This document shows, in pieces, positions 30,319-47,311 of a stretch of DNA of 64,000 nucleotides. Positions within the stretch are counted from its first letter, which is position 1, and every line of letters starts with the position of its first letter. Source of the DNA: Acutalibacter muris. GTDB taxonomy: Bacteria; Bacillota; Clostridia; Oscillospirales; Acutalibacteraceae. The position numbers were made by a program, and so were the translations under genes. The notes below the pieces were generated by a model that saw nothing but the letters and a program-made list of their open reading frames with translations, had not been told where the DNA came from and made no database searches. The stretch spans positions 1,550,001 to 1,614,000 of the forward strand of contig NZ_CP021422.1 of assembly GCF_002201475.1 (NCBI RefSeq). The letters are read 5' to 3'.

Positions 30319-30369
30319 TTCCCAACATATAAAGACCTCTTAATTTTAATGGAGAAAATCTGTAGTGGT

Positions 30370-30398
30370 AAGCCGGTCTCCGGGAAGGGAGAGCGGCT
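30370..30398 (+). terminator. hairpin after the Dlt-like operon
   Basis: The stem AAGCCGGTCTCC against GGAGAGCGGCTT (one mismatch) closes a GGGAAG loop and is followed by TTCCACC. The T run is short, so termination may be partial. Confidence 0.6.
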
Positions 30399-30427
30399 TT
30401 TCCACCAAAAGAAAAGGAGTGTTCCAT

Positions 30428-32323
30428 GTGGCAAAAATGGCGGTTCTTGTACCATACGCTGAGATGAGGGACATGGCGCGGCCCATGGCGGCCAGGTATG
30501 GATATCTCAGCCCGATGTGCATTGAATATGCGGAGACCTGCAGGGTACAGAGCCGCGCCCGGGAACTGGAGCGGCAGGGCTGCGAACTCATAGTGGCACG
30601 GGGACTGCAGGCCACGCTGGCCCGGCAGGTGGTGAAGATACCTATAGTGGAGATACGCGTGACAAGCCAGGAGATAGGTATGCTGGCGCTGGATTTGAAG
30701 GGAGAGCTGGAGGAGCCCTGTCCGCGCATAGGGCTGGTGGGCTTTTCCAACGCTCTCAGCGATACCGCCAGCTTTCATGGCCTTTTCGGCGTCAAGCTGC
30801 CCAGGTACATGGCCGAGAGCCAGGAGGAGCTTTCCCGCTTTGTAGACAAGGCCCGGCAGGAGGGCTGCCATGCGGTGATAGGCGGGGAGGTGGTCTGCCA
30901 GAGGGCCAGGGAGCTGGGGCTTCCGTGCCGGTTTATACCCTGCGGGCGGGAGAGTTTGGAGGACGCCTTCAGAATGGCCTCCCAGGTGGGTTATGCCATA
31001 GATTTGGAGAAGAGCAGCCGGGCGGAGATGGATACCATGCTCAGCTACACCTTCACGGGCATCGTGCAGCTGGACTCTCGGGGCACCGTGCTCCGGGCCA
31101 ACCGCATGGCCTTTAATATGCTGGGACTCGCTCCCGGCGATATGCTGGGCAGTGCCATTGCAGACGTGCTCCCCGAGCTGCCCAGGTCTCTCTTTGATCA
31201 GGCGCTCCACGAGGGCAAGGAAACCTACGCCATCCATGTGCCCCTGCACAAGCTGGCGGTCATAGTGAACATCGCCCCGATCCTGGTAGACAATGCCATA
31301 CACGGGGCCATCCTCACCTTCCAGGAGGGGGAGAGGGTGGAGGAGATGAGCGGCGAGTTCCGGCGGGACCTGTATCAGCAGGGATATTTTGCCCGCCTGC
31401 GCTTCAGCCAGCTGCCCCAGGAGAGCGCCGAGAGCAAGCGGCTGATAGCTATGGCAAAGCGGGTGGCGGGCTGCAGTGCGCCTCTGCTCCTGTCCGGGGA
31501 GCCCGGCTGCGGCAAGGCTATGATTGCCCAGTGCATACACAACGAGAGTCTTGTGCGGGACAACGCTTTCGTGCCTCTGGACTGTGCGGCCTTTCAGGAG
31601 GACACCCTGGACACCATGCTTTTCGGAAACTATACCAGCCGCCAGAGCGGGACCCTCTGCCTTGCGGAGACCGCCCAGAATGGTACCCTTTACCTTTCCC
31701 ATATCGACGCGCTCTCCCCGGAGCTTCAGTATAAGGTGCTTGATCTGGCCAGGGGACGCCTTCGCCATAACGGGTCCCACCCGCTGATGGCCTCCAACGC
31801 CCGGGTCATCGCCTCCTGTGACGGGAACCTCTTCGCCAAGGTACAAGAGGGAGAGTTCCGTTCGGACCTGTATTATGAGCTAAGCGCCCTGCATCTGCGC
31901 CTGGAACCTCTTCGGCGCCGCCGTGAGGACATACTGGGCTGGGTGGATATGTACCTTGAGGAGTATCAGCGCAAGCATAAGCGCTATGTGGCCCTGACCC
32001 AGGAGGCCAGAGCCTATCTTACCGGGTATAGCTGGCCGGGAAACTTGAACCAGCTTCGGGGCCTTTGCCAGCGGGTGGTGCTCCTTGCGGACAAGCGCCA
32101 CGTAAACGATCTGTTCCTGCGCCAGCAACTGGAGCAGAGGGACCCGGAGCCACGGGCGGACGCCGGTCCCCCGGTATACCAGGACCAGGAGGCCCGCCGC
32201 CTGGCGGAGCTGCTCATAAAGCATAAGGGCAGCAGGCAGGCGGTGGCAGAGGAACTGGGCATAAGCAAGACCACCCTCTGGCGGCGCATGAAGCGGCTGG
32301 GACTGGGCGGAGAGCGAGTATAA
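30428..32323 (+). CDS. PrpR-type enhancer-binding-like regulator with degenerate AAA+ domain
   Basis: The start is GTG 30428, eight bases after AAAGGAG; upstream codons in frame lie across a hairpin. The 631-residue protein has a PrpR_N sensor domain (about 1-170), a PAS domain (about 195-290), an AAA+ domain (about 330-560) and a Fis-type helix-turn-helix (SRQAVAEELGISKTTLWRRM). Walker A is altered (GEPGCGKAM). The GAFTGA loop that contacts sigma-54 is missing (MLFGNYTSRQSGTL at its place). Walker B reads GTLYLSHIDAL instead of LDEI. It probably acts without sigma-54. A phased operator array lies just downstream, before the acid-sugar genes. Confidence 0.85.
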   Translation: MAKMAVLVPYAEMRDMARPMAARYGYLSPMCIEYAETCRVQSRARELERQGCELIVARGLQATLARQVVKIPIVEIRVTSQEIGMLALDLKGELEEPCPRIGLVGFSNALSDTASFHGLFGVKLPRYMAESQEELSRFVDKARQEGCHAVIGGEVVCQRARELGLPCRFIPCGRESLEDAFRMASQVGYAIDLEKSSRAEMDTMLSYTFTGIVQLDSRGTVLRANRMAFNMLGLAPGDMLGSAIADVLPELPRSLFDQALHEGKETYAIHVPLHKLAVIVNIAPILVDNAIHGAILTFQEGERVEEMSGEFRRDLYQQGYFARLRFSQLPQESAESKRLIAMAKRVAGCSAPLLLSGEPGCGKAMIAQCIHNESLVRDNAFVPLDCAAFQEDTLDTMLFGNYTSRQSGTLCLAETAQNGTLYLSHIDALSPELQYKVLDLARGRLRHNGSHPLMASNARVIASCDGNLFAKVQEGEFRSDLYYELSALHLRLEPLRRRREDILGWVDMYLEEYQRKHKRYVALTQEARAYLTGYSWPGNLNQLRGLCQRVVLLADKRHVNDLFLRQQLEQRDPEPRADAGPPVYQDQEARRLAELLIKHKGSRQAVAEELGISKTTLWRRMKRLGLGGERV

Positions 32324-32629: not shown

Positions 32630-33511
32630 ATGAAAATCGGTATGATAGGCCTGGGCATTATGGGCCGTCCTATGGCAAAAAATCTTCTAAAGGCAGGCTA
32701 CGATCTGACCGTCAACGACCGCAATCCGGCGGCTGCCCAGGAACTGGAGACGGCAGGGGCAAGGGCCGCCTCCAATGCGGAGATAGGCGAGACCTGTGAT
32801 CTGGTGCTCACCATGGTGCCCAACAGCCCTCAGGTCAAGGAGGTCATGCTGGGCGAGGACGGCGTTGCCGCCCATATGAAGCCCGGCGCCACCTTTATCG
32901 ACATGAGCTCCATCAATCCCATGGCCTCCAAGGAGATAGCCGCCGAGCTTGAGAAGAAGGGCATTGAGATGCTGGACGCGCCCGTCTCCGGCGGCGAGCC
33001 CAAGGCCATCGACGGCACTTTAAGCTTTATGGTTGGCGGCAAGCAGGAGGTGTTTGATAAGTTCAAGCCGGTGCTCCTGGCCATGGGCTCCTCGGTGGTG
33101 CGCTGTGGCGAGGTGGGCGCGGGCAACACCACCAAGCTTGCAAACCAGATTATAGTGGCCTGTAATATCCAGGCCGTGTCCGAGGCCTTCACCCTGGCCC
33201 AGATGGCCGGCGTGGACCCACAGCTGGTGTTTGAGGCCATTAGAGGCGGCCTTGCGGGCTCCACCGTTATGAACGCCAAGGGCCCCATGATGATAGAGGG
33301 TAACGACGCCCCCGGCTTCAAGATAGACCTGCACATAAAGGACCTGAACAACGCCCTTGACTGTGCCCACACCGTTGGTGCTCCGGTGCCCATGACCGCT
33401 CAGGTCCAGGAGATTCTACAGTGGATGCACAGCCATGAGGGCGGACAGAAGGACCACAGCGCCCTTGCCCAGTATTATGAGTACCTGACCGGCATCAAGA
33501 TTGGCCGCTGA
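32630..33511 (+). CDS. garR: tartronate semialdehyde reductase-like beta-hydroxyacid dehydrogenase
   Basis: The 293-residue NAD(P)-dependent enzyme should interconvert tartronate semialdehyde and D-glycerate. The Rossmann motif is GMIGLGIMGRPMAKNL, the substrate motif is DAPVSGGEPKAIDGTLSFMV, and the catalytic Lys is in GNTTKLANQIIVA. The GEPKAIDGTLSFMVGG block is close to GarR as I remember it. A ribosome site GAAAGGAAG lies upstream. It is the first gene of the operon behind the operator array and is followed by an aldolase with an 18-bp gap. Confidence 0.85.
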   Translation: MKIGMIGLGIMGRPMAKNLLKAGYDLTVNDRNPAAAQELETAGARAASNAEIGETCDLVLTMVPNSPQVKEVMLGEDGVAAHMKPGATFIDMSSINPMASKEIAAELEKKGIEMLDAPVSGGEPKAIDGTLSFMVGGKQEVFDKFKPVLLAMGSSVVRCGEVGAGNTTKLANQIIVACNIQAVSEAFTLAQMAGVDPQLVFEAIRGGLAGSTVMNAKGPMMIEGNDAPGFKIDLHIKDLNNALDCAHTVGAPVPMTAQVQEILQWMHSHEGGQKDHSALAQYYEYLTGIKIGR

Positions 33512-33529: not shown

Positions 33530-34447
33530 ATGTATAAACCCTACGGAATTATCCCTCCCATAATTACCCCCTTTGACGATCAGGGATATGTGGACTGTCC
33601 GGCTCTGGCACAGATGTCAAGGTTCTTGGTGGACAACGGTGTGCACGGCCTGTTCCCCTTTGGCACCACCGGCGAGTTCTACGCGGTGTCCGACGGGGAG
33701 TTCATAAAGGGTCTTGAAACCGTTCGGGACGCTGTGAAGGGCAAGGCAAACAGGTACGGAAAACCCATACAGCTTATTGCCGGGTGCAGTCATATCACCA
33801 CCCGCGAGGTAATTCGGCTCATAAAGCTGGTGGAGCAGGTGGGAGGATATGACGCGATTTCCGTGCTGACCCCTATGTTTGTCAGCCAGACCCAGGCCGA
33901 GCTCTACACCTACTATAAGACAATTGCCGACAGTACCGAAATGCCCATTATCATGTACAATAATAAGCCAAAGACCAACGTGACCATCGAGCCCGCAACG
34001 GTCTCCCGCCTGGCCCGGGCCTGTCCAAACATCATCGGCATCAAGGACTCCACCGGGGACATGACAAATACCGAGGAGTATCTGCGCCTTACAAGGGACC
34101 TTCGGGAGCGCTTCGACGTTATCATGGGCCGTGACACACTTATCTGTGCGGGCCTGCACTACGGCTGCTCCGGCGCTGTGGCAAGCTGTGCCAACGTGGC
34201 CCCAAGGGTAGTGGCTGATATCTACGACAAGTTTCACGACGGCGACTATAAGGGCTCCCTCGAGGCTCAGTACAGGCTGGCCCCCCTGCGCATTGCGTGC
34301 AGTATGGGCACCTTCCCCGAGGTCATCAAGGAGGGGCTGAACCTCCAGGGCCTCCAGGTGGGCAAGTGCCTGGAGCCCATAGGTGAGCTGACAGTAGAGG
34401 AGAAGGAGAAGCTGCGCACGGTACTTAGAGAGATGGAGCTTATTTGA
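33530..34447 (+). CDS. DapA-family aldolase/dehydratase for a deoxy-keto-sugar acid
   Basis: This 305-residue class I lyase has the DapA fold motifs: GTTGEFYAVSDGEF near the N-terminus, Tyr143 in IIMYNNKPKT and the Schiff-base Lys172 in IGIKDSTGD. In this operon the expected substrate is a 2-keto-3-deoxy sugar acid such as 5-keto-4-deoxyglucarate. It could be cleaved to pyruvate and tartronate semialdehyde, which the reductase upstream would use. A decarboxylating dehydratase of the KdgD type is the main alternative. The substrate cannot be fixed from sequence alone. Confidence 0.8.
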   Translation: MYKPYGIIPPIITPFDDQGYVDCPALAQMSRFLVDNGVHGLFPFGTTGEFYAVSDGEFIKGLETVRDAVKGKANRYGKPIQLIAGCSHITTREVIRLIKLVEQVGGYDAISVLTPMFVSQTQAELYTYYKTIADSTEMPIIMYNNKPKTNVTIEPATVSRLARACPNIIGIKDSTGDMTNTEEYLRLTRDLRERFDVIMGRDTLICAGLHYGCSGAVASCANVAPRVVADIYDKFHDGDYKGSLEAQYRLAPLRIACSMGTFPEVIKEGLNLQGLQVGKCLEPIGELTVEEKEKLRTVLREMELI

Positions 34448-34448
34448 G

Positions 34449-34567: not shown

Positions 34568-35803
34568 ATGGATAAAAAACTTCGGCATGACGCCGACAAA
34601 ATAATCGCCGCCAGCATAAAAGCAGTCCTCCCGGACGAGGCGGTGCGCAGGGCCCTGGAGGACTTTGAGCCCGGCCCAGGGCGCACTCTGCTGGTGGCGG
34701 CGGGGAAGGCCGCCTGGCAGATGGCAAAGGCGGCGGTGGACGCTCTCGGAGACGTGGAGGGCGGCGTAGTGGTGACAAAATACGGCCATGTGAAGGGGAA
34801 GATACCAGGGGTGAGCTGCTATGAGGCAGGACACCCTGTGCCGGATGAAAACAGCTTTTCCGCTACAGAAAAGGCCCTGGAACTGGTCAGGGGCCTGACA
34901 GAAAGCGATACGGTACTCTTTCTGCTCTCCGGCGGCGGCAGCGCCTTGTTCGAGCGCCCCTTGGTGCCGGGAGAGGAGCTGCAGGATATTACCCGCCAGC
35001 TTCTGGCCTGCGGCGCGGATATAGTGGAGATGAACACTATCCGAAAACGTCTCTCAGAGGTAAAGGGCGGGCGATTTGCCCAGGCCTGCGCCCCGGCCCG
35101 TGTTTTCAGCATCGTGCTCAGCGATATCATCGGCGACCCCCTGGACATGATAGCCAGCGGCCCTGCCTACCCGGACAGTTCCACCTGTGAGCAGGCCAAG
35201 GCTATTGTCCGAAAGTATGGCTTAAAACTGTCGGACACCGCAAAAGCGCTTCTTGACAGAGAGAACCCGAAGGAGCTTGATAATGTGGCCACCCGCATTA
35301 CCGGCTCCGTCCGTGAGCTCTGTGCGGCTGCGGCAAAAGCCTGCCGGGAGCTGGGCTATGAGCCCGTGCTTCTAACCGACCGCCTTGCCTGTGAGGCGAG
35401 AGAGGCAGGGAGCTTTTTGGCGAGCCTCCTGCAAAGCCACGCAAAGGACGGCCGCAGCCTTGCGTTTATTGCCGGCGGAGAGACCGTCGTGCACCTTACA
35501 GGCAGCGGCCTGGGCGGCAGGAACCAGGAGCTGGCCCTGGCCGCTGCCCCAGGCCTTGCCGGGCTCACCGGCGCGGCGGTCTTCTCCGTGGGCAGCGACG
35601 GTACCGACGGTCCTACCGACGCCGCCGGAGGCTATGTGGACTGGGAGACCCAGCCGGAGCTTGCGGGGAGGGGCCTGGATATTCCGGCGGTTCTGAAGGA
35701 GAACGACGCCTATCATGCCCTGGAGGCGGTAGGCGGGCTTATCGTTACCGGGCCCACGGGGACGAATGTGAATGATGTGGCGGTGGCAATGCTAGCGCCA
35801 TAA
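34568..35803 (+). CDS. glycerate 2-kinase, MOFRL family
   Basis: The 411-residue enzyme phosphorylates D-glycerate to 2-phosphoglycerate. It belongs to the DUF4147/MOFRL class: RTLLVAAGKAAWQMAKAA near the N-terminus, the phosphate-binding FLLSGGGSALFERP, MNTIRKRLSEVKGGRFA, and the C-terminal MOFRL domain with GGRNQELALAAA and SVGSDGTDGPTDAAGG. Its ribosome site CAAGGAGGT lies right after the glucarate dehydratase remnant. It completes a route from tartronate semialdehyde through glycerate to glycolysis. A terminator follows. Confidence 0.92.
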   Translation: MDKKLRHDADKIIAASIKAVLPDEAVRRALEDFEPGPGRTLLVAAGKAAWQMAKAAVDALGDVEGGVVVTKYGHVKGKIPGVSCYEAGHPVPDENSFSATEKALELVRGLTESDTVLFLLSGGGSALFERPLVPGEELQDITRQLLACGADIVEMNTIRKRLSEVKGGRFAQACAPARVFSIVLSDIIGDPLDMIASGPAYPDSSTCEQAKAIVRKYGLKLSDTAKALLDRENPKELDNVATRITGSVRELCAAAAKACRELGYEPVLLTDRLACEAREAGSFLASLLQSHAKDGRSLAFIAGGETVVHLTGSGLGGRNQELALAAAPGLAGLTGAAVFSVGSDGTDGPTDAAGGYVDWETQPELAGRGLDIPAVLKENDAYHALEAVGGLIVTGPTGTNVNDVAVAMLAP

Positions 35804-35848: not shown

Positions 35849-35888
35849 GCGCACTTGAAAAGAGGTACTTTACCTTTTTCAAGTGCGC
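35849..35888 (+). terminator. terminator after the glycerate kinase gene
   Basis: A 13-bp stem (GCGCACTTGAAAA and its complement) is followed by TTACTTTATT. It separates the glycerate operon from the glycyl-radical genes. The 225 bp after it up to 36115 hold no open frame or promoter that I can support. Confidence 0.8.
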
Positions 35889-36115
35889 TTACTTTATTCC
35901 ATGGGCAAGCACACCCGGGCAAGTATAGCTTTTGCCTATTATCTGAAAAAAAGCCTATCCTTTTATGTGGAAAGCCGCAAGATTTTCGGCTTATCCAAAG
36001 GATTGAAGCTTGCGAAAAGAGGGCATATGGGGTTTAATAAAGCTGTAAGGGAAACAGCGGCCGGCGTTTCCCTATCCTCTGCCCCTGCGGGGCAGGTATT
36101 TGGAGATGATGTGTT

Positions 36116-37042
36116 TTGCGTAAACAAGGCTTACTGCTTGATATGGATGGCTTCTCTACCCACGACGGGCCGGGGATCCGCACGGCGGTGTTTCTCAAGG
36201 GCTGCCCTCTCTCCTGTCGGTGGTGCCATTCGCCCGAGTCCCAAAAGTATAAATCAGAGCTGCTCTACCAACAGGCCCGCTGCACCGCCTGTCTGCGCTG
36301 CGCCGCCGCCTGCCCTGCGGTGGCCATTTCCCCGGTTACCGCCGCCGGCGGCCAGGAGCCGGGAATCGCTGTTGACCGAACAAAGTGCAAAAGCTGCTAT
36401 TCCTGTGTGGGGGCCTGCCACTTCAAGGCTCTGCGAGTGGGGGGCGTTAAGGCGGACCCGGAGGAGCTGGCCCGGCAGGTAGCCAGGGATCTGCCCTTTT
36501 TCCGCAGTTCCGGCGGGGGCGTCACCCTAAGCGGCGGCGAGCCGCTGATGCAGCCGGGGTTTACCCTGACGTTCCTCACCGCGTGCCAAGCGCTGGGGGT
36601 GCATACCCTGCTGGAGACCTGCGGCCATGGCAGCCGGACAGAGCTGCTGGAAATTGCCGTCCACTGCGACATGATCTATTTTGATCTCAAGCTGATGGAT
36701 CCGCAAAAGCATAAAGAATGGGTCGGGGTGGACAACCGGGTGATTCTTCAAAATCTGGAGGCCCTCTGCGCCGCCGGACACGCGGAGCGGGTAACGGTGC
36801 GGACGCCCTGCATCCCCGGCGTAAACGACAGCCACGAGGAGATACGCGCCCTTGCCCGCTACGCCAGAGGTTTGGGAATTTCCCAAATGCAGCTGCTGCC
36901 CTATAACCCCATGGCTGGGGAAAAGTACAAATGGATCGGCGCGGGCTATGCCCTGTCGGACCGGGAGCCCCGGGACAAGGCTTATTATGAGTCGCTGGAC
37001 CAGACCGCCGGGCAGGAGGGCATGACCCTCCTGCGGGAATAA
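36116..37042 (+). CDS. glycyl-radical enzyme activating enzyme (radical SAM)
   Basis: The 308-residue enzyme installs the glycyl radical on its partner encoded next. The N-terminal DGPGIRTAVFLKGCPLSCRW region holds the radical SAM CxxxCxxC cluster motif (CPLSCRWC). Two ferredoxin-like 4Fe-4S motifs follow (CTACLRCAAACP and CKSCYSCVGACH), as in activases of glycyl-radical dehydratases and decarboxylases. GGGVTLSGGEPLMQ binds SAM. The only in-frame start is TTG 36116, since a stop lies three codons upstream; GGAG is about ten bases away. Confidence 0.92.
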   Translation: MRKQGLLLDMDGFSTHDGPGIRTAVFLKGCPLSCRWCHSPESQKYKSELLYQQARCTACLRCAAACPAVAISPVTAAGGQEPGIAVDRTKCKSCYSCVGACHFKALRVGGVKADPEELARQVARDLPFFRSSGGGVTLSGGEPLMQPGFTLTFLTACQALGVHTLLETCGHGSRTELLEIAVHCDMIYFDLKLMDPQKHKEWVGVDNRVILQNLEALCAAGHAERVTVRTPCIPGVNDSHEEIRALARYARGLGISQMQLLPYNPMAGEKYKWIGAGYALSDREPRDKAYYESLDQTAGQEGMTLLRE

Positions 37043-37097
37043 TCGGGAACGCTTTTAGTAAAATAGCAGATCCAAATTTGAAATGGAGGTATGTACT

Positions 37098-39509
37098 GTG
37101 GAAACCATAGTGGACCAAGCAAGAACCGATCTGTCCTTACGGGGGATGTCCCCCAAAATCAGGCTGCACTTCGACACCCTGGAGCACCGTATGCGCCGGC
37201 GGCAGAGGATGTGGGGCGGCGACCTTTCTGTGCTCAACGAGGAAACCGTCCGTCGCAGCGCCGCTATCCGCCGGTCCCTGGCCTTTGAGAAGGTCATGAG
37301 GGAAATGCCCCTGGCTCTGGAGCCCTATGACGTGGTGGTAGGAAGCTGCGCCATTGAGGGGGCGGTGGTGCGCTGTGCACTGCCGATTTACCTCTTGAAC
37401 CAGGAGCTCGGCTACTGCTCCTTGCAGATGTCCCACAAATGTCCTGACTACGAGACCCTGCTGCGCCGGGGCCTGCGCTCCATAATCGATGAGCTGAAAT
37501 CCCGGCGGCCTCAGGCGCAGGCCCAGCCCTTTGCGGACGTGCGCCAGAGCCAGCTGGACTTTATTGAAGCCTGCGTGCGGGAGGCCGAGGCGGTGATAGC
37601 CCTTGCCAACCGCTACAGTGATATCACCGAAGCCGCCGCCCGAAAGGAGAGCGACCCTATCCGGCGGGAGGAGCTGCTGGAAATTTCCCGGGTCTGCCGC
37701 CGGGTGCCGGAATTCCCTGCCACCGGCCTGCACGAAGCCCTCCAGTCCCTGTGGTTCTTTAACCTGGCTATGATTGAGGTGTACTCCAATATCTCCATCG
37801 GGCACATCGACGCGGTGCTGAACCCTTATTTTGAGTCGGACTGGAACGCCGGGAAAATCACCCTGGCCCGGGCCCAGGACCTGGTGGACAGCTTTGTTCT
37901 CCATGTAAACGACCGCGCCCAGGTGGACCCCAAGCAGTATTATTTAAAGGACCAGAAATCCCTGCCCGGCGCGCCCCAGCAGTGCCGGATCGGTTACGGC
38001 TACGGCTTTGTCACTTCGTTGGAAAACGACCAGGCCGACGCTATCAACCATTGGGGTCAGAACATCCTGATAAGCGGGCTGAACGCCGACGGCTCCGACG
38101 CCACCAATGCCCTTACTTACCTGTTCCTGAACGCCCACGAGAAGTTCTCCATGACCAGCCCGGTGCTCACCGTGCGTATGCACAAAAACACCCCGCCCCA
38201 GCTGCTTCACCGGGCGGCGGAGGTGCTGAAAACCGGCGGCGGTATGCCCTACATAAACAACGACGATGTGATAGTGGCGGGCTACGAACGCCTGGGCGTT
38301 CCTCGAGAGGACGGCTGCAAATACGCCAACTCCAACTGCTGGGAGACCCTTTTGCAGGGTATGTGCAACCAGGAGATGATCCGTGGGCTGAACTTCCTTT
38401 ACTTCCTGGAGCTGGCCCTGAACCAGGGGCAGCCGTTCCTATATAAAGATGACCTGAAGGGCCAGCACGGTCCCGACCGCGGCGACCCCATGACCTTTGG
38501 GGCCAGCTACTGCGTCTCCTATAACATGGTGGAGGGGGTTGAGACCAAGAACCCGGCCGCGCTGGAGACGTTTGACGACCTGATGTATGCCTGGAAACTA
38601 CAAATGGATTGCATGATGAGCAAGTCTATGGAGTATGTGGCCGCCAATGTAAGAGCAGGGGGCTCCCATGGACCGCTGGACGCCAAGCCTATCCTTTCGG
38701 TGCTGACCCAAGGCTGTGTGGAGAGTCTGACGGACCTGACCCACGGCGGGGCCAAGTATAACCTCTGGCACCTGATGGGCGAGGCGGTGGCCAATGCCGC
38801 CGATTCCCTGGCGGTCATCAAAAAATTTGTGTATGACGAAAAGCGCCTGACTCTGCCTCAAATGGTAGAGATACTTAAACGCGACTGGGCCGGCGAGGAG
38901 GGCGAGAGCCTGCGGCTGAAGTGTATTAGCGAGGTCCCGAAATTCGGCAACGATATTCCCTATGTGGATGACATTGCAAAGGAAATGGTGGATTACTTCC
39001 TTCAGCGGGCGGAGTTCCACGGAAAGAAGTACCCGGACTTCATTTTCTCCCCCTGTATCGGCACCTATTCCTGGATCATCTCTATTGGCAAAAAGATTGG
39101 AGCCTCCGCCGAGGGCCGCAAGGCCAGGGAGCCCATTGCGGCCAACCTGTCTCCTGTGCCGGGCCGGGACGTCTCCGGTCCCACCGCGGCGGTGCGCTCC
39201 TATCTGAAGCTGAACACGGCTCCCATGGCCGCGGGAGCGCCCATCGACCTGCGGGTGAGCAGCAGCGGCCTGGAGGGAGAAGCCGGCACCAAGCGGGTGG
39301 AGGGGCTCATCAAGGCCTTCCTCCAGGAGGGCGGCAACATGATGACCCTGACCATCACCAGCGCCGAGGAACTGCGCCGGGCCATGGCCGAGCCGGAGAA
39401 GTACCGGGGTCTGCGGGTGCGCATGGGCGGCTGGTCCGCCTATTATGTGCTGCTGAGCAGGGCTTCACAGGAGATACACCTGAAGAGGGTGGAGCATGGG
39501 TTTGCATAA
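37098..39509 (+). CDS. glycyl-radical enzyme of the diol-dehydratase type, substrate unknown
   Basis: The start chosen is GTG 37098, seven bases after GGAGGT; ATG 37083 lies before that site. The 803-residue enzyme has the thiyl-radical Cys414 in YANSNCWETLL, keeping the C-x-E pair of glycerol/propanediol dehydratases and choline lyase but with NCWE instead of GCVE. The glycyl-radical motif is RMGGWSAYY (Gly778, with Trp in place of Tyr). Pyruvate formate-lyase has Cys-Cys at the active site, so this is not one. Context (activase upstream, semialdehyde dehydrogenase downstream, glycerate genes nearby) suggests dehydration of a small hydroxy acid such as glycerate. Confidence 0.88.
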   Translation: METIVDQARTDLSLRGMSPKIRLHFDTLEHRMRRRQRMWGGDLSVLNEETVRRSAAIRRSLAFEKVMREMPLALEPYDVVVGSCAIEGAVVRCALPIYLLNQELGYCSLQMSHKCPDYETLLRRGLRSIIDELKSRRPQAQAQPFADVRQSQLDFIEACVREAEAVIALANRYSDITEAAARKESDPIRREELLEISRVCRRVPEFPATGLHEALQSLWFFNLAMIEVYSNISIGHIDAVLNPYFESDWNAGKITLARAQDLVDSFVLHVNDRAQVDPKQYYLKDQKSLPGAPQQCRIGYGYGFVTSLENDQADAINHWGQNILISGLNADGSDATNALTYLFLNAHEKFSMTSPVLTVRMHKNTPPQLLHRAAEVLKTGGGMPYINNDDVIVAGYERLGVPREDGCKYANSNCWETLLQGMCNQEMIRGLNFLYFLELALNQGQPFLYKDDLKGQHGPDRGDPMTFGASYCVSYNMVEGVETKNPAALETFDDLMYAWKLQMDCMMSKSMEYVAANVRAGGSHGPLDAKPILSVLTQGCVESLTDLTHGGAKYNLWHLMGEAVANAADSLAVIKKFVYDEKRLTLPQMVEILKRDWAGEEGESLRLKCISEVPKFGNDIPYVDDIAKEMVDYFLQRAEFHGKKYPDFIFSPCIGTYSWIISIGKKIGASAEGRKAREPIAANLSPVPGRDVSGPTAAVRSYLKLNTAPMAAGAPIDLRVSSSGLEGEAGTKRVEGLIKAFLQEGGNMMTLTITSAEELRRAMAEPEKYRGLRVRMGGWSAYYVLLSRASQEIHLKRVEHGFA

Positions 39510-39527
39510 AGAAAAGGAGGGCTAACA

Positions 39528-41042
39528 ATGAGCGAAATCGTTAAGCTGCCGTTTTACGGCAAGGGCGGCTGGAAGCAGTCCGCCACAGAAAAATGGAGGG
39601 ACGTTATGGACCCCAGCACCGGCCAGGTGATCGCACAGGCCCCCTGCTGCACGGCGGCAGAGGTGGACGAGACGGTGGCCCAGGCCGCCGAAGCCTATCG
39701 GACCTGGTCCCGCACGCCTGTGATACGGCGCACCCAGGTGCTGTTTCAGTTCCGTGAGCTTCTGATGGAGCATATGGACGAGCTGACCTATATTCTGGCC
39801 CGGGAAAACGGCAAGGTGTGGGAGGAGGCCCGGGGCGATCTGCTGAAAGTAAAGGAGCCTGTTGAGCTGGCCTGCGGTGCGCCTACCCTGATGATGGGAG
39901 AAAGCCTGATGGATACCAGCTTCGGCTATGATACCGTGCTCTACCGGGAGCCGCTGGGTGTGTTTGCGGGGATAGCGCCGTTCAATTTCCCGGCCATGAT
40001 CCCTATGGGCTGGATGGTGCCGCTATGTATCGCCACAGGCAACACCATGGTAATAAAGGCATCCAGCACCACACCCATGACTTCCATGCGGCTGTTGGAG
40101 CTGTTGGAGGAGGCCGGACTGCCACAAGGGGTGGTAAGCGTGCTTACCACCGGGCGGGACAACGCCCAGGCCCTGCTCAGTGATCCTAGGATCAAGGGGG
40201 TGTGCTTTGTGGGCAGTACCGGGGCAGGCCTGAAGATATATTCCGCCGCCGCAGCCAGCGGCAAACGGGTGCAGGCACTATGCGAAGCCAAGAACCACGC
40301 CCTGGTCATGGACGACGCAGTATTGGAACGAACCGCCAAGGGAATTATCAACTCCGCGTTCGGCTGCGCGGGTGAGCGCTGCATGGCCCTGCCTGTGGTG
40401 GTGGCCCAGGAGGGGATAGCGGACCGGCTGGTAGAGCGCCTGGCTGAGTTGGCCGGACAGCTCAAGGTGGGCTGTGCCTATGATAAGTCCTCGCAAATGG
40501 GTCCTGTCGTTACGAAGAAGCATATGGATTCCATTCTGGACTGGATCGATACCGGCTTAAAAGAGGGCGCGCGGCTGGCACTGGATGGCCGGGACGTGCA
40601 GGTGCCGGGCTATGAGAACGGCTACTACATCGGACCAACTATTCTGGATCATGTGACGCCGGAGATGTCTGTGGGCCGGCAGGAGATCTTTGGGCCGGTG
40701 CTATGTGTAAAGCGGGTGAAGACCTTTGAGGAGGGCGTGGCCCTGATCAATGCCAACCCCTATGCCAACGGCGCGGTGATCTACACCCAAAACGGCTATT
40801 ACGCACGAAACTTTGCCCGGCAGATCGACGGCGGCATGGTCGGCGTGAACGTGGGCATTCCGGTGCCGGTGGGTATGTTCCCGTTCTCAGGGCACAAGCA
40901 GTCCTTCTTTGGCGACCTGCACACCCTGGGCAAGGACGGTGTGCGGTTCTTCACGGAAAATAAGGTGGTCACCTCCACCTGGTTCACAGAGGAGTCTAAC
41001 CGGGAAAAGGTAGACACCTGGGACGGCTCCGTAGGCGGCTAA
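39528..41042 (+). CDS. methylmalonate/malonate-semialdehyde dehydrogenase-like aldehyde dehydrogenase
   Basis: This 504-residue aldehyde dehydrogenase resembles the CoA-acylating MmsA/IolA group. The catalytic Cys is in GCAGERCMALPVVV, the GERCMA form of that group, with PFNFPAMIPMGWMVPL and GNTMVIKAS in the cofactor region. MmsA enzymes turn malonate or methylmalonate semialdehyde into acetyl- or propionyl-CoA and CO2. It lies 18 bp after the glycyl-radical enzyme and shares its transcript, so it should consume the aldehyde made by that enzyme. An AAAGGAGG ribosome site precedes it. Confidence 0.85.
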   Translation: MSEIVKLPFYGKGGWKQSATEKWRDVMDPSTGQVIAQAPCCTAAEVDETVAQAAEAYRTWSRTPVIRRTQVLFQFRELLMEHMDELTYILARENGKVWEEARGDLLKVKEPVELACGAPTLMMGESLMDTSFGYDTVLYREPLGVFAGIAPFNFPAMIPMGWMVPLCIATGNTMVIKASSTTPMTSMRLLELLEEAGLPQGVVSVLTTGRDNAQALLSDPRIKGVCFVGSTGAGLKIYSAAAASGKRVQALCEAKNHALVMDDAVLERTAKGIINSAFGCAGERCMALPVVVAQEGIADRLVERLAELAGQLKVGCAYDKSSQMGPVVTKKHMDSILDWIDTGLKEGARLALDGRDVQVPGYENGYYIGPTILDHVTPEMSVGRQEIFGPVLCVKRVKTFEEGVALINANPYANGAVIYTQNGYYARNFARQIDGGMVGVNVGIPVPVGMFPFSGHKQSFFGDLHTLGKDGVRFFTENKVVTSTWFTEESNREKVDTWDGSVGG

Positions 41043-41173: not shown

Positions 41174-41209
41174 GAAAACCGCCGGTCCTTTTGGACGCGG
41201 CGGTTTTTC
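41174..41209 (+). terminator. terminator after the glycyl-radical operon
   Basis: The stem AAAACCGCCG against CGGCGGTTTT holds a loop with an inner GTCC/GGAC pair and ends in a T run. It also faces the convergent regulator gene and may stop both. Confidence 0.8.
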
Positions 41210-41239: not shown

Positions 41240-43498
41240 TCAAGTGCGTTTGCCGTCCTCCTTTCCGGCAGACTGTTCCTGGCGATACTGGGTGGGGGTG
41301 ATTCCCTCCAGCTTCTTGAAACCCCGGATAAACGTGCCGCTGCTGGCATAGCCCACCTGGGCAGCGATCTCAGCCACGTTTTTCTTTGAGGAACAGAGCA
41401 GCTCTTTGGCCTTGGTCATGCGCAGCCGCGTCACACGGTCCATCAAGCCCTCGCCCATCTTTTCCTTAAAAAAGCTGGAAAGATAAGTGGGCGTCAGGCC
41501 CAGATGATCCGCCAGGCCCACCAAGCTAAAGCTGTTGTCAAAGCAGTTGTCCAGAATATACCCGTCAATCCGCTCCAAAAGCTGTTGGTTGCGGTTGCTC
41601 TGGCCTTTCTTAATAGAGTCGCAGATCTCCAGCAGGATATGGTTTAAGGTGCGCTGCAGCCTGCCAATGCTCTGGCAGGCAAACAGCATATCCAAATATT
41701 CACCATAGGAGCTGCCCTGCTCCAGTTTTATCTCCGACAGCACCTCCAGCCCCATGCCCATAATATCGAAGAACAGGCACTTTGCCACCTCCAAGGGGAG
41801 GTCCATTCGGTTTGAGGAGATCCTCTCGAACACATTGTCCAGCAAAGCCACCGCGCCGGGTCCGTCTCCCGCGCGGATGCGGGCCTTGATCTTTGCTTTA
41901 TCAATCACAGGGTAGAACGCTTTGGGCGCTTCACGAACGCCTACGTCCTGGTATGCGCACACAGCGCCCCGGTCCTCTAAGATGCGGTATTCCAGGGCGG
42001 ACATACTCTCACCATAGGAGGCCCCAATCTCTTCAAAGGAGCCGTGCACGCCTCCCACCCCGATGGAGAGGAACGCGTCAAATTCTGACTCAAACCCTTG
42101 CCTGATTCCGTCCAGTTCCTGGCACAAGGCGTTGGTCCAGCCCTGCAGGCTGTCGCCGTTGATAATCACCGCGATCTGGTTCCAGTTCACGTCCACAAAG
42201 CTTGGACGGTGTGCCGCCGCAACGCCCTGGCCTATTAGGTCCATAAGATAGTATTTCATCAGCGGCTGGCGCTCCAGTCCGTTGGCACGGGAGGCGTTGC
42301 CATATTCAATCAGGATGCTGACCACCTGGTACTCCGGCCCGGAAAGCTCCGGCCCTAAGGCGTCCAGGTAGCCGTTCTCCATTTCGTTCAAGGCAAGGCT
42401 GCTGTTCAGAACCGCCAACAGCATATTGTTGCGTACCACCTGGTTGTGGTGTTCCAAAAGCTGGTCCTTTTCCGCCAGCAGGCTTTCAAAATGGGAGTTC
42501 ACCAGCTTATATTCATTGCCGACCTCCTTCCATCTGGCAGGCGCGGCATAGCCCTGGCCGGTGATTCGGGCATAGAGAGCGCGCACCGGCGCCACGTTAA
42601 ACCGGGCAAAGAAAAACGAGAGCAAGATTCCTATGGCAAGTTCTGCCAGCAGCACTAAAATCGTGCGGAAGATCAACTCATTTATGGCGCTGTCGTAGAT
42701 TTTGGAGGGAATAGCTGAGAGGTAGGTCCAGCCGGTCCGGGAGGAGGTGTAGGGCGCTATATACCGGTTGTCGGCCTCCTCGAAGTTCTCGCCGCCAAAA
42801 CTCACCAGCACCTCCCCGCTGGCGTCCGTGATTTGGAAGGCCATTTGGCCGGAGAAAAACGAATTCTGGAAGATGCGGAAGATATCCTCAAGGCTAAAGG
42901 TAACCGCCACCAGCGCCTTGCGCCCATAGACCCCGTAAACCGTGTGGTACAGTACAAATTCGTTGAGGTCTCCGCTGTATGAGGGCTCATACTGCCGGTA
43001 AAACAATTCGGACTGCCTGTGGTGCCACTCCTCATAGCTGATCTTTTCCGGGTCCACAAACTGTCGGTAAAAATCCTCGGCCCGATAGTAGGCGCCCTCC
43101 ATTACTATGGCGTCGTTGTTGTCAAAATAGATGTACATCCCGGCCACATCGTTGGAGTAGTTCCGCATAAGGATGGAGGTACGCAGGGTTTTAGAAAGCT
43201 GGTGGGAGGAAACCAAGTCGTCAGAGGACACGGACCGAAGGATGTCTGTGTCCGTAAGGACATTAAGTAGGAGGGAGTCCACCTTGTTCAACTCGCTGTT
43301 GACCATCTCGTCAAACTGCTGGAACATAACTTGGTCGTATAGATCCTTCTGTGTCCGAAGCTCCGCGATATAAGCAGTGTAATTGTATATATTGAACAGC
43401 AGCGAAAAAAGCAGAACGAAAAGATATGAGACAAAGCAGATATAAAAAATGCTGTGCCTTTTGGTGACCTCCCACAGGTTTGTTGTGATCCGTTTCAT
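41240..43498 (-). CDS. membrane-bound AraC-family regulator of the first importer locus
   Basis: The start is ATG 43498, behind GGAGGGC; the open frame begins earlier at 43567 without a site. The 752-residue protein has a transmembrane helix at about 17-40, an extracytoplasmic sensor (Cache-like) to about 275, a second helix near 280-300 (TILVLLAELAIGILLSFFFA) and a cytoplasmic part. A C-terminal AraC HTH pair ends it (SLVGLADHLGLTPTYLSSFF; NVAEIAAQVGYASSGTFIRG). Such proteins sense extracellular sugar and switch on the divergent importer, here at 43793. The gap between the two genes is 294 bp and contains the promoter of that operon. Confidence 0.88.
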   Translation of the reverse strand: MKRITTNLWEVTKRHSIFYICFVSYLFVLLFSLLFNIYNYTAYIAELRTQKDLYDQVMFQQFDEMVNSELNKVDSLLLNVLTDTDILRSVSSDDLVSSHQLSKTLRTSILMRNYSNDVAGMYIYFDNNDAIVMEGAYYRAEDFYRQFVDPEKISYEEWHHRQSELFYRQYEPSYSGDLNEFVLYHTVYGVYGRKALVAVTFSLEDIFRIFQNSFFSGQMAFQITDASGEVLVSFGGENFEEADNRYIAPYTSSRTGWTYLSAIPSKIYDSAINELIFRTILVLLAELAIGILLSFFFARFNVAPVRALYARITGQGYAAPARWKEVGNEYKLVNSHFESLLAEKDQLLEHHNQVVRNNMLLAVLNSSLALNEMENGYLDALGPELSGPEYQVVSILIEYGNASRANGLERQPLMKYYLMDLIGQGVAAAHRPSFVDVNWNQIAVIINGDSLQGWTNALCQELDGIRQGFESEFDAFLSIGVGGVHGSFEEIGASYGESMSALEYRILEDRGAVCAYQDVGVREAPKAFYPVIDKAKIKARIRAGDGPGAVALLDNVFERISSNRMDLPLEVAKCLFFDIMGMGLEVLSEIKLEQGSSYGEYLDMLFACQSIGRLQRTLNHILLEICDSIKKGQSNRNQQLLERIDGYILDNCFDNSFSLVGLADHLGLTPTYLSSFFKEKMGEGLMDRVTRLRMTKAKELLCSSKKNVAEIAAQVGYASSGTFIRGFKKLEGITPTQYRQEQSAGKEDGKRT

Positions 43499-43724
43499 TT
43501 TCGGCCCTCCGTTCTTTTTGCGCTGCAAGGCAGCCGTAATTTTTCCAGTCGGCTCTGTTGGTTGCAAACTAATTATATACTAAGTGGCTAAATATGTCCA
43601 TAGAAATAATTATATTTTTAGCAAAATCACAAGTATTGCATATGTATCATAATAAATGCGCACCTATATAACAGGCTATATTATCCAAAAACAAAAGAAC
43701 GCCCACAATCCAAACTATTGAGCA

Positions 43725-43753
43725 TTGACATACCCCGTCCGATGGGTTATGAT
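43725..43753 (+). promoter_or_regulatory. promoter of the first importer operon
   Basis: A consensus -35 TTGACA (43725-43730), a 17-bp spacer and a -10 TATGAT (43748-43753). It falls inside an upstream extension of the open frame and supports the start at 43793. Confidence 0.8.
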
Positions 43754-43792
43754 CTTCTCAACAAACACCGAAAACAAGGAGGGCTGCATCTT

Positions 43793-44737
43793 ATGACAAA
43801 CACGGACAAAACCAGCGTCCGGCCGCAGAGAAAGAAATCCCTTGGCGCCAGAATGAAGCAGTACTGGCAGATCTACGTATTAATGGGCGTGGGCCTGCTG
43901 GCCTATCTCATCTTCCGTCTCCTGCCGCTTTGGGGACTTTCTCTGGCCTTTGTGGATTTCAACATTATTGGCGGCTTAGCCAACAGCCCTTTTGTGGGCC
44001 TGAAGCATTTCATCAATCTTTTTACCACCGACCGCTTTTTCCGTATGCTGCGCAATACTCTGGGCATCAGCTTGCTAAACCTGTTCCTGGCGTTTCCCGC
44101 GCCTATTATGCTGGCGCTGCTGCTCAACGAGGTGCGTAGCGAGAAATTTAAGCGGCTCTCCCAGTCCCTTGTCTATATGCCCCATTTCCTTTCCTGGCCG
44201 GTAATTACGGGCATTACATTTTTTCTGTTCAGCATAGACGTGGGCGTGGTCAACAAGTTCCTTGTAGCCAGCGGCGGCGAGGCCCAGCGTTTCCTTTCCA
44301 ACCCCAGCACCTTTTGGTTCGTGCTGCTGTTCCAGAACATATGGCGGGAATGCGGCTGGGGATCCATTATATACTTGGCTGCCATCTCGCAAATTGACAC
44401 CAGCCTTTATGAGGCTGCCACGGTGGACGGCGCTACCCGTATGCAGAAGCTGCTGCGCATTACTCTGCCATGTCTCATGCCTACCATTATCGTTATGTTT
44501 ATCATGCGGCTGGGCAACCTATTAGATGTCTCCTTTGAGCAGGTGCTGATGATGGACAACCGCTTTGTCACCAGCGTCTCTGAGGTCTTCGATATCTACT
44601 CCTTTAAGGTGGGTATGCAGCAGGGCAACTACAGCATTGGCACGGCGGTAGGCCTGTGCAAAAGCGTGGTGGGCCTGTGTATGGTCATCGGCAGCAACCG
44701 GCTGGTAAAGAAGGCCGGCGGCGAAGGCATCTATTGA
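43793..44737 (+). CDS. sugar ABC transporter permease, LplB type (locus 1)
   Basis: The 314-residue integral membrane subunit has six hydrophobic segments. The EAA loop is DTSLYEAATVDGATRMQKLL, which docks the ATPase, and LLPLWGLSLAFVDFNIIGG is typical of the LplB/YtcQ group used for oligosaccharides. The start ATG 43793 follows AAGGAGGG and the promoter above. The shared ATPase is not in this window, as is common in this family. It forms an operon with the second permease (20-bp gap) and the binding protein. Confidence 0.92.
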   Translation: MTNTDKTSVRPQRKKSLGARMKQYWQIYVLMGVGLLAYLIFRLLPLWGLSLAFVDFNIIGGLANSPFVGLKHFINLFTTDRFFRMLRNTLGISLLNLFLAFPAPIMLALLLNEVRSEKFKRLSQSLVYMPHFLSWPVITGITFFLFSIDVGVVNKFLVASGGEAQRFLSNPSTFWFVLLFQNIWRECGWGSIIYLAAISQIDTSLYEAATVDGATRMQKLLRITLPCLMPTIIVMFIMRLGNLLDVSFEQVLMMDNRFVTSVSEVFDIYSFKVGMQQGNYSIGTAVGLCKSVVGLCMVIGSNRLVKKAGGEGIY

Positions 44738-44757
44738 CGGAAAGGAGGAGAAATATT

Positions 44758-45657
44758 ATGACAAACGCAAACGCCATAAAGCCGCAGAAAAGCCGGCTGA
44801 ACCGGAAGATCACCCTATTCGACGTGGTGGTTCACGCCCTCCTCATTGTAATTGTGCTGCTCTGCTTTCTGCCCTTTCTCTATGTATTTATTGTGTCCTT
44901 TACGGACCCCGCCGTATACGTCCCGCTGGAGTTCCAGATTATTCCGGAAAAATTCTCCTTTGACGTGTACTGGTCCATTTTGAACACCGACACCTTTTTG
45001 CGTACCCTGGGCAACACGGTGTACGTCACTGTGATCGGCACAACGCTGAGTATTTTCACCACCTTTACCTTTGCCTATGGTCTCTCGAAAAAGGAGATAC
45101 CCTTTCACCGGGTGTTCGTGGCAATAGTTCTGTTCGGGCTGCTCTTTAATCCCGGCATGATTCCCGAATATATGAACATCCGCAGCCTGGGTCTGCTGAA
45201 CAACCACTGGTCCCTGATCCTCTCCGGCCTGATTTCCTCTTGGAACGTGGTGATTGCCAGGAACTTTATCCAGGGCATTCCCGGCGAGCTGGAGGAGGCT
45301 GCGAAGATTGACGGCTGCTCCTATTTCGGCACGTTCTTTCACATAATCCTGCCCCTTTCCACCGCCTCCCTTGCCACGCTTACCCTGTTTATCGCGGTGG
45401 GAAACTGGAACCAATATACTAAACCTCTGCTCTATCTCAACGATTACAAGCTCCACACTCTGCAGGTCTATTTAAAGTCCCTGCTGGTGGACTCGGACAC
45501 CATGGGCATGAACGCGGTGGACAGCGACCGCGTACTCCCCTCCGAGAGCATCCGAATGGCCACAGTGGTGCTGGCCATGTTCCCCATCATGTGCGTCTAT
45601 CCCTTTGTGCAGAGATACTTTGTCAAGGGGGTTATGGTGGGCTCTGTGAAAGGCTGA
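44758..45657 (+). CDS. sugar ABC transporter permease, YtcP type (locus 1)
   Basis: The 299-residue second permease has six helices, the EAA loop ELEEAAKIDGCSYFGTFFHI and the conserved C-terminus FVQRYFVKGVMVGSVKG. It starts at ATG 44758 after AAAGGAGGAG. It pairs with the upstream LplB-type subunit to form the membrane channel. A 49-bp gap with GGAGGT leads to the binding-protein gene. Confidence 0.93.
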   Translation: MTNANAIKPQKSRLNRKITLFDVVVHALLIVIVLLCFLPFLYVFIVSFTDPAVYVPLEFQIIPEKFSFDVYWSILNTDTFLRTLGNTVYVTVIGTTLSIFTTFTFAYGLSKKEIPFHRVFVAIVLFGLLFNPGMIPEYMNIRSLGLLNNHWSLILSGLISSWNVVIARNFIQGIPGELEEAAKIDGCSYFGTFFHIILPLSTASLATLTLFIAVGNWNQYTKPLLYLNDYKLHTLQVYLKSLLVDSDTMGMNAVDSDRVLPSESIRMATVVLAMFPIMCVYPFVQRYFVKGVMVGSVKG

Positions 45658-45706
45658 GCCCGCCTGATATATACGCAGTAAAAATTTGAAGGAGGTCAAC
45701 CCAACT

Positions 45707-47311
45707 ATGAAACGCAGCAAACTACAGCGCATTGCGGCACTGCTCCTGGCCCTGGCTCTCGTCGCCGGCCTTGGCGCCTGCTCGCAGAAGGACAACTCCT
45801 CCGGCGGCAGTTCTTCTGCCAACACGCCGTCCTCAAGCGAGGAGAGCTCTGAACCGTCCTCCTCCGCTGTGGAGGAAAAAACCAGTGGCGATGACCAGGA
45901 GCCCCTGGAGATCACCGCCGTGCTCACCATGTTCGAAACCCCTGTGGACGTGAACAGCGAATACTGGCAGGATATGCAGGAGCGGTGCAAGGTGATCTAC
46001 ACCCCCGAGTGGGTGCCCGTCACCTCTTACAACGACCGGCTAAGCCTGCTGGTCTCCACCAACGATCTGCCGGATATCATACGTGTGGAAAACCTCTCCA
46101 CCCCCTGGGTGGTAAAGGCCCTGGAGGCCGGTATGTTCTATGACTTTACCGACTCCCTGGGCAGCGACGGCCTGCCCAACCTCTCCGCACTAAACCCCGC
46201 CGCCTGGACCAACTCCAAGTATAAAGGCAGAAACTACCTGATACCCAACTCCAGGGGACAGTACAACAACTGCTACTTCCTGCGGCAGGACCTGCTGGAC
46301 AAGTACGATCTGCCTTTGCCCTCCACCATCGAGGAACTGACCGCCTATTTTGAGGCCATTGCCCAAGAGGACGGCATGGTGCCGGTTCCCTCTAATGTGG
46401 ACAGCCCCATTGAGCTGGTGCAGTCCGCCTTTGGACCGGGCAATATCCTTCCCGTATACACCGAGGACGGCTCCGGCATTGTTCCGTTCAGGCTGACGGA
46501 GAGCTACGCCAAGTCGGTGGAGTACATGGCCGAGTTGTACGGCAAGGGCCTGCTCTCCAAAGAATTCGCCCTGCTCAACGGCGACCAGACCGAGGACCTG
46601 ATGGTTTCCGGCAAGGGCGGAATCTACTCCAAGAACGCCTGGCATAGCTACCGCATTAACGAGGAAATCAAAAAGGTGAACCCCGAGGGCAGTTTTGAGC
46701 CCATCTTCGGCCTGGAGGGACCCGGCGGCACCAGCGTGTTCTATGATATGGGTTACTCCGGCGGCCTGTCCATCAACAGTTCTGTCGGCGATGAAAAGGC
46801 CCGGCGCATTCTGGAGTTCATGGATTATACCAGTGATCCCGACAATTACAACTACTTCTATTATGGTATTGAGGGCACCCACTTCGAGATTGTGGACGGG
46901 TTCCCGTCCCTGACCGAGGAGGGCAAAAAAGTAGTCAACAATTCTTTCTATATACCCTTTACGCTGGCCTCCGCTACCTACACCAAGGTGAACAGCCCTC
47001 TGGCTCCAGCCGAGTATAACCTGGAAATGCAGAAAAAAGTGGGCAAGGTAGACGAGCTGGCAAAAGAGATCGACGGCGCGCCGTTCCTGATCTTCAACAT
47101 CATTAATTCCCAGACCTGGGCCGATTTCTGGGCTGTGAACCAAGTGGAGTTCGAATCTTTCCGTGCCGACGTGATCACAGGCGCCAAAACTATTGAGGAC
47201 TTCCGGGCCTATCAGCAGCAGCTCCTGGAGATGGAGGAGATAAAAACGGCCATGACCGAGTATAAGACAAGCTATGACGAATTCGGCTTTGACAGCTGGG
47301 AAGCTTCTTAA
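45707..47311 (+). CDS. sugar-binding lipoprotein of ABC importer (locus 1)
   Basis: The 534-residue extracellular binding protein has a lipoprotein signal (LVAGLGAC, Cys about residue 25), then a Ser/Glu-rich flexible linker to about 68 and a large two-lobed solute-binding domain of the LplA/LipO type. It is tethered to the membrane and delivers a saccharide to the two permeases upstream. The start ATG 45707 follows GGAGGT. A hairpin terminator comes 31 bp after the stop. The ligand is unknown. Confidence 0.9.
   Translation: MKRSKLQRIAALLLALALVAGLGACSQKDNSSGGSSSANTPSSSEESSEPSSSAVEEKTSGDDQEPLEITAVLTMFETPVDVNSEYWQDMQERCKVIYTPEWVPVTSYNDRLSLLVSTNDLPDIIRVENLSTPWVVKALEAGMFYDFTDSLGSDGLPNLSALNPAAWTNSKYKGRNYLIPNSRGQYNNCYFLRQDLLDKYDLPLPSTIEELTAYFEAIAQEDGMVPVPSNVDSPIELVQSAFGPGNILPVYTEDGSGIVPFRLTESYAKSVEYMAELYGKGLLSKEFALLNGDQTEDLMVSGKGGIYSKNAWHSYRINEEIKKVNPEGSFEPIFGLEGPGGTSVFYDMGYSGGLSINSSVGDEKARRILEFMDYTSDPDNYNYFYYGIEGTHFEIVDGFPSLTEEGKKVVNNSFYIPFTLASATYTKVNSPLAPAEYNLEMQKKVGKVDELAKEIDGAPFLIFNIINSQTWADFWAVNQVEFESFRADVITGAKTIEDFRAYQQQLLEMEEIKTAMTEYKTSYDEFGFDSWEAS

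Follow-up and report, generated by a model that had tools for sequence, protein, structure and literature searches.

A glycyl-radical enzyme paired with a malonate-semialdehyde-dehydrogenase-like protein in Acutalibacter muris: a possible anaerobic route to acetyl-CoA

Gene content and organization of the locus

In a 64,000-nucleotide stretch of the Acutalibacter muris genome (contig NZ_CP021422.1, positions 1,550,001 to 1,614,000; hereafter, the window), three plus-strand genes encode a radical S-adenosylmethionine (SAM) activating enzyme, a glycyl-radical enzyme (GRE), and a CoA-acylating malonate/methylmalonate-semialdehyde dehydrogenase (MMSDH) (Table 1). This three-gene unit may run an undescribed anaerobic breakdown route, with glycerate or a substituted glycerate as its putative starting compound. 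A preliminary description of the locus had reported a GRE with a C-x-E signature followed by an MMSDH-like gene; the coordinates and gene order are correct, and the Pfam and NCBIfam domain assignments agree with them. The activating enzyme carries Radical_SAM and Fer4 domains and scored 306.7 bits against the NCBIfam model TIGR02494 (cut-off 174.35), while no substrate-specific activase model of NCBIfam reached its cut-off. The GRE contains the pyruvate-formate-lyase (PFL)-like domain (PF02901, 380 bits) and the Gly-radical domain (PF01228, 57.8 bits), together with the Cys loop and the Gly loop of the superfamily; its database entry, P0001, starts five codons further in. The MMSDH has an Aldedh domain and passed TIGR01722 with 557.6 bits (cut-off 448.5). 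The host genome, a single contig of 3.8 Mb, encodes four PFL-like GREs and one MMSDH over the cut-off, which is the window copy.

The activase and GRE genes are separated by 40 bp, and the GRE and MMSDH genes by 18 bp. Terminator-like hairpins with perfect arms lie on either side of the unit. On the basis of the 18-bp gap and these hairpins, positions 36116-41042 would form one transcription unit. The 111 nt around the upstream hairpin gave a folding z of -4.0, and 0 of 200 shuffled sequences folded as well. Both hairpins were missing from a consensus terminator scan because their loops are longer than its 3-8 range. A 26-bp palindrome 5' of the activase gene is a possible operator. It is the only mismatch-free copy in the genome, and no regulon was found when up to 3 mismatches were allowed (12 sites per strand, versus 20 in the reversed control). 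The sigma-54 pattern matched 31 times in the window (shuffle mean 38.9), never on the plus strand between the kinase and activase genes, and a sigma-70 scan was likewise empty there; thus, no promoter was identified for the GRE unit.

Table 1. Coordinates of the GRE unit, its sequence motifs, and neighboring features in the window
Feature	Position	Strand	Remarks
Sigma-54-type regulator with PrpR_N domain	30365..32323	+	Pfam
2-Hydroxy-3-oxopropionate (tartronate semialdehyde) reductase GarR	32630..33511	+	NF008592, 454.8 (cut-off 397)
DapA-fold lyase/aldolase-like protein	33530..34447	+	PF00701; no NCBIfam equivalog over its cut-off
Glycerate 2-kinase-like protein, DUF4147 and MOFRL	34568..35803	+	Below both NCBIfam glycerate-2-kinase cut-offs
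Terminator-like hairpin between kinase gene and GRE unit	35849..35888	+	13-bp perfect arms, then TTACTTTATT (T-rich)
26-bp palindrome, possible operator 5' of activase	36048..36073	.	AGGGAAAC-N10-GTTTCCCT
GRE-activating radical SAM enzyme	36116..37042	+	CxxxCxxC and ferredoxin-type clusters; TTG start
GRE, uncharacterised eliminase-type family	37083..39509	+	808 aa
His118 codon (His113 in P0001)	37434..37436	+	Aligns with beta-1 substrate site; 66/66
CWE, thiyl Cys and eliminase Glu	38337..38345	+	66/66 aligned sequences
Arg434 codon (Arg429 in P0001), candidate carboxylate contact	38382..38384	+	97% of 66
RMGGW Gly loop, second Gly presumed radical site	39420..39434	+	Aligned to RVAGY of solved GREs; 66/66
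MMSDH, IolA-like anaerobe clade	39528..41042	+	
Terminator-like hairpin 3' of MMSDH	41175..41207	+	10-bp perfect arms, loop 13, then TTTCTTTT
Sugar-type ABC importer (two permeases, binding protein)	43718..47311	+	Homologous to importer 5' of the L006 GRE genes

The glycyl-radical enzyme

PMC8473560 defines GRE eliminases by a CxE motif. In this study, the motif was found as CWE in every sequence of an alignment of the window protein with 65 relatives (46-89% identical), and NCWE and RMGGW occurred together in all 66. The GRE search gave 283 matches, 120 of which were listed; 22 and later 66 of these were aligned. Among the listed matches, some of which are fragments, NCWE was present in 120 of 120 and RMGGW in 116. 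The enzyme is 20-30% identical to solved GREs of the PFL type. It scored below the cut-off of every curated NCBIfam equivalog (HpsG, HpfG, CutC, HypD, the indoleacetate and hydroxyphenylacetate decarboxylases, PRK09983, and PFL1); the best of these, HpsG, gave 317 bits against a cut-off of 1000. Thus, with no curated cut-off reached and at most 30% identity to any solved GRE, the suggestion that the NCWE/RMGGW enzyme stands apart from the characterised families was borne out. It likely represents a new functional family inside the known GRE superfamily, an uncharacterised group of eliminases whose product at this locus is probably malonate semialdehyde.

Active-site residues were read from the alignment. 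The substrate site on strand beta-1, occupied by Asp216 in CutC, His160 in HypD, and Gln193 in IslA according to PMC8473560, is a His in the window enzyme. Lys114 (P0001 numbering) is also invariant in the NCWE/RMGGW family. By the alignment, Arg429 (P0001) is on the strand after the Cys loop, and its place in the pocket would be near that of CutC Tyr506 and HypD Tyr450, which contact the substrate in the same source. Arg429 may therefore be read as a candidate contact for an acid group, a weak one because two of the three other host GREs have Lys at this position. The second GRE of L087, a Clostridiales locus described below, also has Lys there, and it has Ile in place of Lys114.

The dehydrogenase and its clade

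IolA acts on malonate semialdehyde in inositol breakdown. Of 7999 MMSDH matches, 120 were listed; a tree of 50 rows picked by hand, with fragments of 400 aa or less excluded, placed the window MMSDH in a wider clade with inositol-operon copies, supported at 100/100 against ordinary MMSDH. The loci of same-family genomes agree with this. From 33 family genomes with a match, 28 loci were fetched (the window genome and four others were excluded), and in 17 of them the MMSDH gene lies between iolE and iolG, names that were checked over NCBIfam cut-offs for L096 only. These copies are 59-65% identical to that of the window. Because the wider clade includes the iolE-iolG copies, malonate semialdehyde is likely the substrate of the window MMSDH. 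The earlier proposal that this enzyme turns malonate semialdehyde into acetyl-CoA and CO2 thereby gains support. The host genome has no IolE over the cut-off (best 112.7 versus 290; IolG was not searched for) and a single MMSDH; the GRE is therefore the obvious supplier of the dehydrogenase's substrate.

Within the wider clade, the window MMSDH falls in a group of 19 rows (support 97/100) that holds six of the seven rows labelled as GRE-linked, and the labelled iol copies form another group (97/98). It might be asked whether the GRE instead forms another aldehyde that bears a carboxylate, such as 2-hydroxy-4-oxobutanoate made from a tetronate, which the MMSDH would convert to the matching acyl-CoA. 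This is consistent with the gene neighborhoods: MMSDH adjoins only some GRE carriers, the nearest MMSDHs without a GRE have no iol neighbors, a Treponema locus (L005) has a LarA-like protein (Lar_N, under every racemase cut-off) two genes after the GRE, and the L006 operon is faced by a convergent gene pair that is presumably class I fumarase/tartrate-dehydratase-like. However, the window MMSDH shares its Lys, its extra Gly, and its RCMA catalytic loop with the iolE-iolG copies, with small differences around them, and nothing found in it clearly points to a new substrate. Such an aldehyde is accordingly considered quite improbable. Three candidate signs (Lys for Arg in GDLLKVKEP, the extra Gly in MIPMGWM, and Glu in LCEAKNH) were rejected because the iolE/iolG-linked copies share the first two and, in the last case, carry either Glu or Gln.

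Recurrence of the GRE-MMSDH pairing

The pairing recurs in distant genomes. The Spirochaetia locus L006 encodes, in this order, an ABC importer, activase, GRE, MMSDH, and Dak1 and Dak2 proteins; its GRE and MMSDH are 67% and 73% identical to those of the window. In L087, from the Clostridiales metagenome-assembled genome that also contains L009, the order is importer, aldo-keto reductase, Dak1, Dak2, MMSDH, activase, an epimerase-like gene, and a second GRE. This second GRE (3976-6339) has GCWE, NHW, TFSW, and RMGGW and is 32% identical to the window GRE. Since the MMSDHs of L006 and L087 fall in different supported tree groups, either the pair was assembled repeatedly or one of its members was replaced. 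Furthermore, four contigs longer than 10 kb, the only size class compared, have identical sizes in the GRE and MMSDH match lists, which suggests that the two genes share a contig; 0.08 such contigs are expected, and the maximum in 20,000 simulations was 3. Of the eight genomes that carry a near GRE, six have an MMSDH at least 61% identical, in one case a fragmentary one. For comparison, with another cut-off (at least 59%), 33 of 200 same-family genomes have an MMSDH, the window genome included.

These data bear on the view that GRE and MMSDH are mere neighbors without a shared pathway, the GRE acting on an unrelated substrate such as a polyol. Among the 26 related loci, many of them short and only eight of them from near relatives (47-69% identical), 18 with GREs 41-45% identical have no MMSDH nearby. 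Besides GRE and activase, no neighbor group occurs in more than three of the 26, and the scanned neighbors are mixed, including sulfatase-like and oxidase-like genes. Nevertheless, the reappearance of the pair in distant genomes and with another GRE, the 18-bp spacing, and the shared contigs make chance proximity improbable.

With E up to 1e-150, the GRE was found in 1 of 29 genus genomes, 1 of 398 family genomes, and 1 of 394 order genomes, which are overlapping sets, and each time the genome was that of the window. Three of 391 class genomes carry it: that of the window, L034, and L035, the latter two on contigs as long as those of L027 and L010. A protein search of plasmids (E up to 1e-100) found none.

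Proposed pathway

In the proposed route, the activating enzyme would install a glycyl radical on the RMGGW loop, and the radical would pass to the Cys of NCWE. The resulting thiyl radical would abstract a hydrogen from the carbon whose hydroxyl is held by the Glu of CxE, and the adjacent leaving group would depart with assistance from the beta-1 His, yielding malonate semialdehyde. The MMSDH would then convert malonate semialdehyde to acetyl-CoA, CO2, and NADH. As a matter of chemistry, a 1,2-elimination can end in malonate semialdehyde only if the carbon adjoining the leaving group is terminal, since any longer chain would lead to a beta-keto acid; the substrate would then be glycerate or a 2-O-substituted glycerate. 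Taken as a whole, the sequence from GRE eliminase through malonate semialdehyde to MMSDH has about an even chance of being right; malonate semialdehyde as the GRE product, considered by itself, has an even chance or slightly better. Gene content, motifs, fold, the repeated pairing, and the clade of the MMSDH are observed, whereas the transcription unit, the elimination chemistry, the shared intermediate, and glycerate as substrate are deductions.

The glycerate half of the proposal is no more than plausible. No feature specific for glycerate was found in the analysis, and free glycerate, the simplest choice of substrate, is a doubtful one. The preliminary description had set the GRE beside genes that make and use glycerate. 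These genes are real and do adjoin the unit, but a terminator-like hairpin lies between them and none of the 26 related loci, many of them short, has their homologues, which weakens that argument; they and the GRE unit probably, though not surely, belong to two separate transcription units. L-glycerate or an imported glycoside would be physiologically more sensible than free D-glycerate, because D-glycerate has a kinase route of equal ATP yield. The LarA-like protein of the Treponema locus, encoded 3' of the GRE, is a pointer to L-glycerate.

The Dak genes may be a hint that a ketotriose is formed from the substrate as well. The GRE might act on a larger compound taken up by the ABC importer, for instance a glycerate glycoside, a glycerate ether, or some different sugar acid. 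It would release malonate semialdehyde together with an alcohol, or else a precursor from which malonate semialdehyde and a triose of the dihydroxyacetone type are formed by cleavage; the latter would explain the Dak genes in two operons. L006 and L087 each combine importer, activase, GRE, MMSDH, and Dak1/Dak2, the Dak proteins scoring just under the NCBIfam DhaK and DhaL cut-offs, and Dak1 is present in five of the eight genomes with a near GRE. The window importer is 64, 56, and 49% identical to that of L006. Judging by their titles, solved complexes with 1,5-anhydroglucitol-6-phosphate also suggest that some GREs act on ring ethers. However, no Dak1 was found in the window genome, the operons were not seen to share an aldolase or a glycosidase, and no GRE or MMSDH homologue was found in six stretches around further Dak genes of these genomes (L128-L133). 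We regard a larger substrate as unlikely.

Several further observations weigh against the route from glycerate through malonate semialdehyde. At the level of the active site, Asp447 of the glycerol dehydratase substrate site aligns with Met in the window GRE, and the stretch of His281-Ser282 corresponds to a three-residue deletion, in a pairwise alignment whose loops may shift. The positions of the sulfonate-binding Arg189 and Arg678 of IslA, compared by sequence alignment only, are not Arg either: the former is Leu, four residues before the beta-1 His, and the beta-8 segment, placed via the HpsG alignment, is without Arg. At the level of the operon, the consensus scan picked up terminator-like matches within genes, among them one in that of the activase (36474-36495), and its 32 matches compare with 17 in shuffles; such hairpins are therefore common in the region. 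At the level of the pathway, the GRE route gains no ATP when glycerate kinase is present and is redundant in these terms, and free glycerate alone leaves the Dak1/Dak2 genes of L006 and L087 unexplained. Homologues of GarR, the DapA-like protein, the glycerate-kinase-like protein, and GarK-type kinase were found in 0 of the 26 loci (tblastn, E up to 1e-15). As for the dehydrogenase, the six nearest same-family MMSDHs by score (65-69%; L090-L094 and L100) adjoin neither iolE, iolG, nor this GRE; in the GRE-linked tree group of 19 rows, the context of 13 is unknown, and for four of the six that are labelled the link is only a contig of equal size.

MMSDH adjoins the GRE in just one of the 26 related loci. 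In a genome search covering 18 of these loci, the genomes of L008 and L027 lacked MMSDH, and ten more distant GRE carriers had none at 60% identity or above. The NCWE/RMGGW family as a whole is thus not tied to malonate semialdehyde.

The reading preferred here for the window is a GRE eliminase delivering malonate semialdehyde to the MMSDH. In its boldest form, the NCWE/RMGGW enzyme might be a glycyl-radical dehydratase that makes malonate semialdehyde from glycerate (or O-substituted glycerate), the first of its kind, and, together with an IolA-type dehydrogenase, might convert sugar-acid fragments anaerobically to acetyl-CoA, bypassing phosphoglycerate and pyruvate; we put this forward tentatively, as a possibility clearly short of even. 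In the open-access literature, whose silence is not proof of absence in print, no paper was found that joins a GRE dehydratase with malonate semialdehyde, none that joins glycerate, malonate semialdehyde, and diol dehydratase, and none on a sequence similarity network of the GRE superfamily. Malonate semialdehyde is otherwise derived from inositol, beta-alanine, and 3-hydroxypropionate. If true, the proposal would extend the GRE eliminases by one reaction and identify a further way in which malonate semialdehyde arises in biology, of use for 3-hydroxypropionate synthesis. The three genes would also serve to mark an as yet unread carbon source in anaerobes such as the host of the window, Spirochaetia, and Clostridiales. 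The pairing narrows the candidate substrates to a handful and is directly testable.

Neighboring genes and other loci

The region upstream of the hairpin (30365-35803) resembles a galactarate/glucarate-type lower pathway in which a DapA-fold enzyme replaces the usual aldolase. For its PrpR_N regulator, none of the 25 NCBIfam families shown reached the cut-off. At another locus (L094, 7372-10085), a GarK-type kinase over the TIGR00045 cut-off is directly upstream of an IolA-like MMSDH, which makes a loose link between glycerate and MMSDH; this GRE was not found in that genome.

Downstream, AraC-type regulators of about 780 aa are encoded at 41240-43567 and 52904-55291. They are unlike the minus-strand regulator-like region at 47400-49191, which is spread over three open frames and may be a disrupted gene. 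A set of ABC importer-like genes (55436-59090) is followed by two GHL6-type putative glycosyl hydrolases in tandem (59216-63467).

In the Treponema locus L005, the activase and GRE are flanked by two look-alike proteins of about 430 aa and the LarA-like protein (521-1825, 5267-6544, and 6541-7842); neither of the look-alikes matched a Pfam or NCBIfam family at the cut-offs applied. Homologous genes also occur near distant GRE relatives of the Chloroflexi type in L012, L016, and L022, with a sulfatase-like match for L012 and L016.

Comparison with known systems

The nearest folds of the window GRE are the diol dehydratases. It resembles 1,2-propanediol dehydratase (5I2G, 9RCO) and B12-independent glycerol dehydratase (1R8W) in the fold of the whole chain, the CxE Cys loop, and the first-strand His. 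It differs from both in being 28-30% identical, in having RMGGW for RVAGY, and in its conserved Arg after the Cys loop, and the Asp and His-Ser presumed to form the glycerol site of glycerol dehydratase are not kept in its alignment. The (2S)-3-sulfopropanediol GREs HpsG and HpfG and the isethionate sulfite-lyase IslA act on small acidic alcohols, as is proposed for the window GRE. The HW before the third strand of HpsG aligns with the window enzyme, whereas the scores against HpsG and HpfG (317 and 297 bits) are far from the cut-offs of 1000, and the two Arg residues of IslA, on beta-1 and beta-8, are without an Arg counterpart.

The window MMSDH belongs to the same wider clade as IolA and has the Lys, the extra Gly, and the RCMA loop in common with it. 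Unlike IolA, it is partnered by a GRE rather than by Iol enzymes and falls in a separate supported tree group. The make-up of the galactarate/glucarate lower pathway (GarR, aldolase, and glycerate kinase) is matched by the upstream genes, which probably form a transcription unit separate from that of the GRE.

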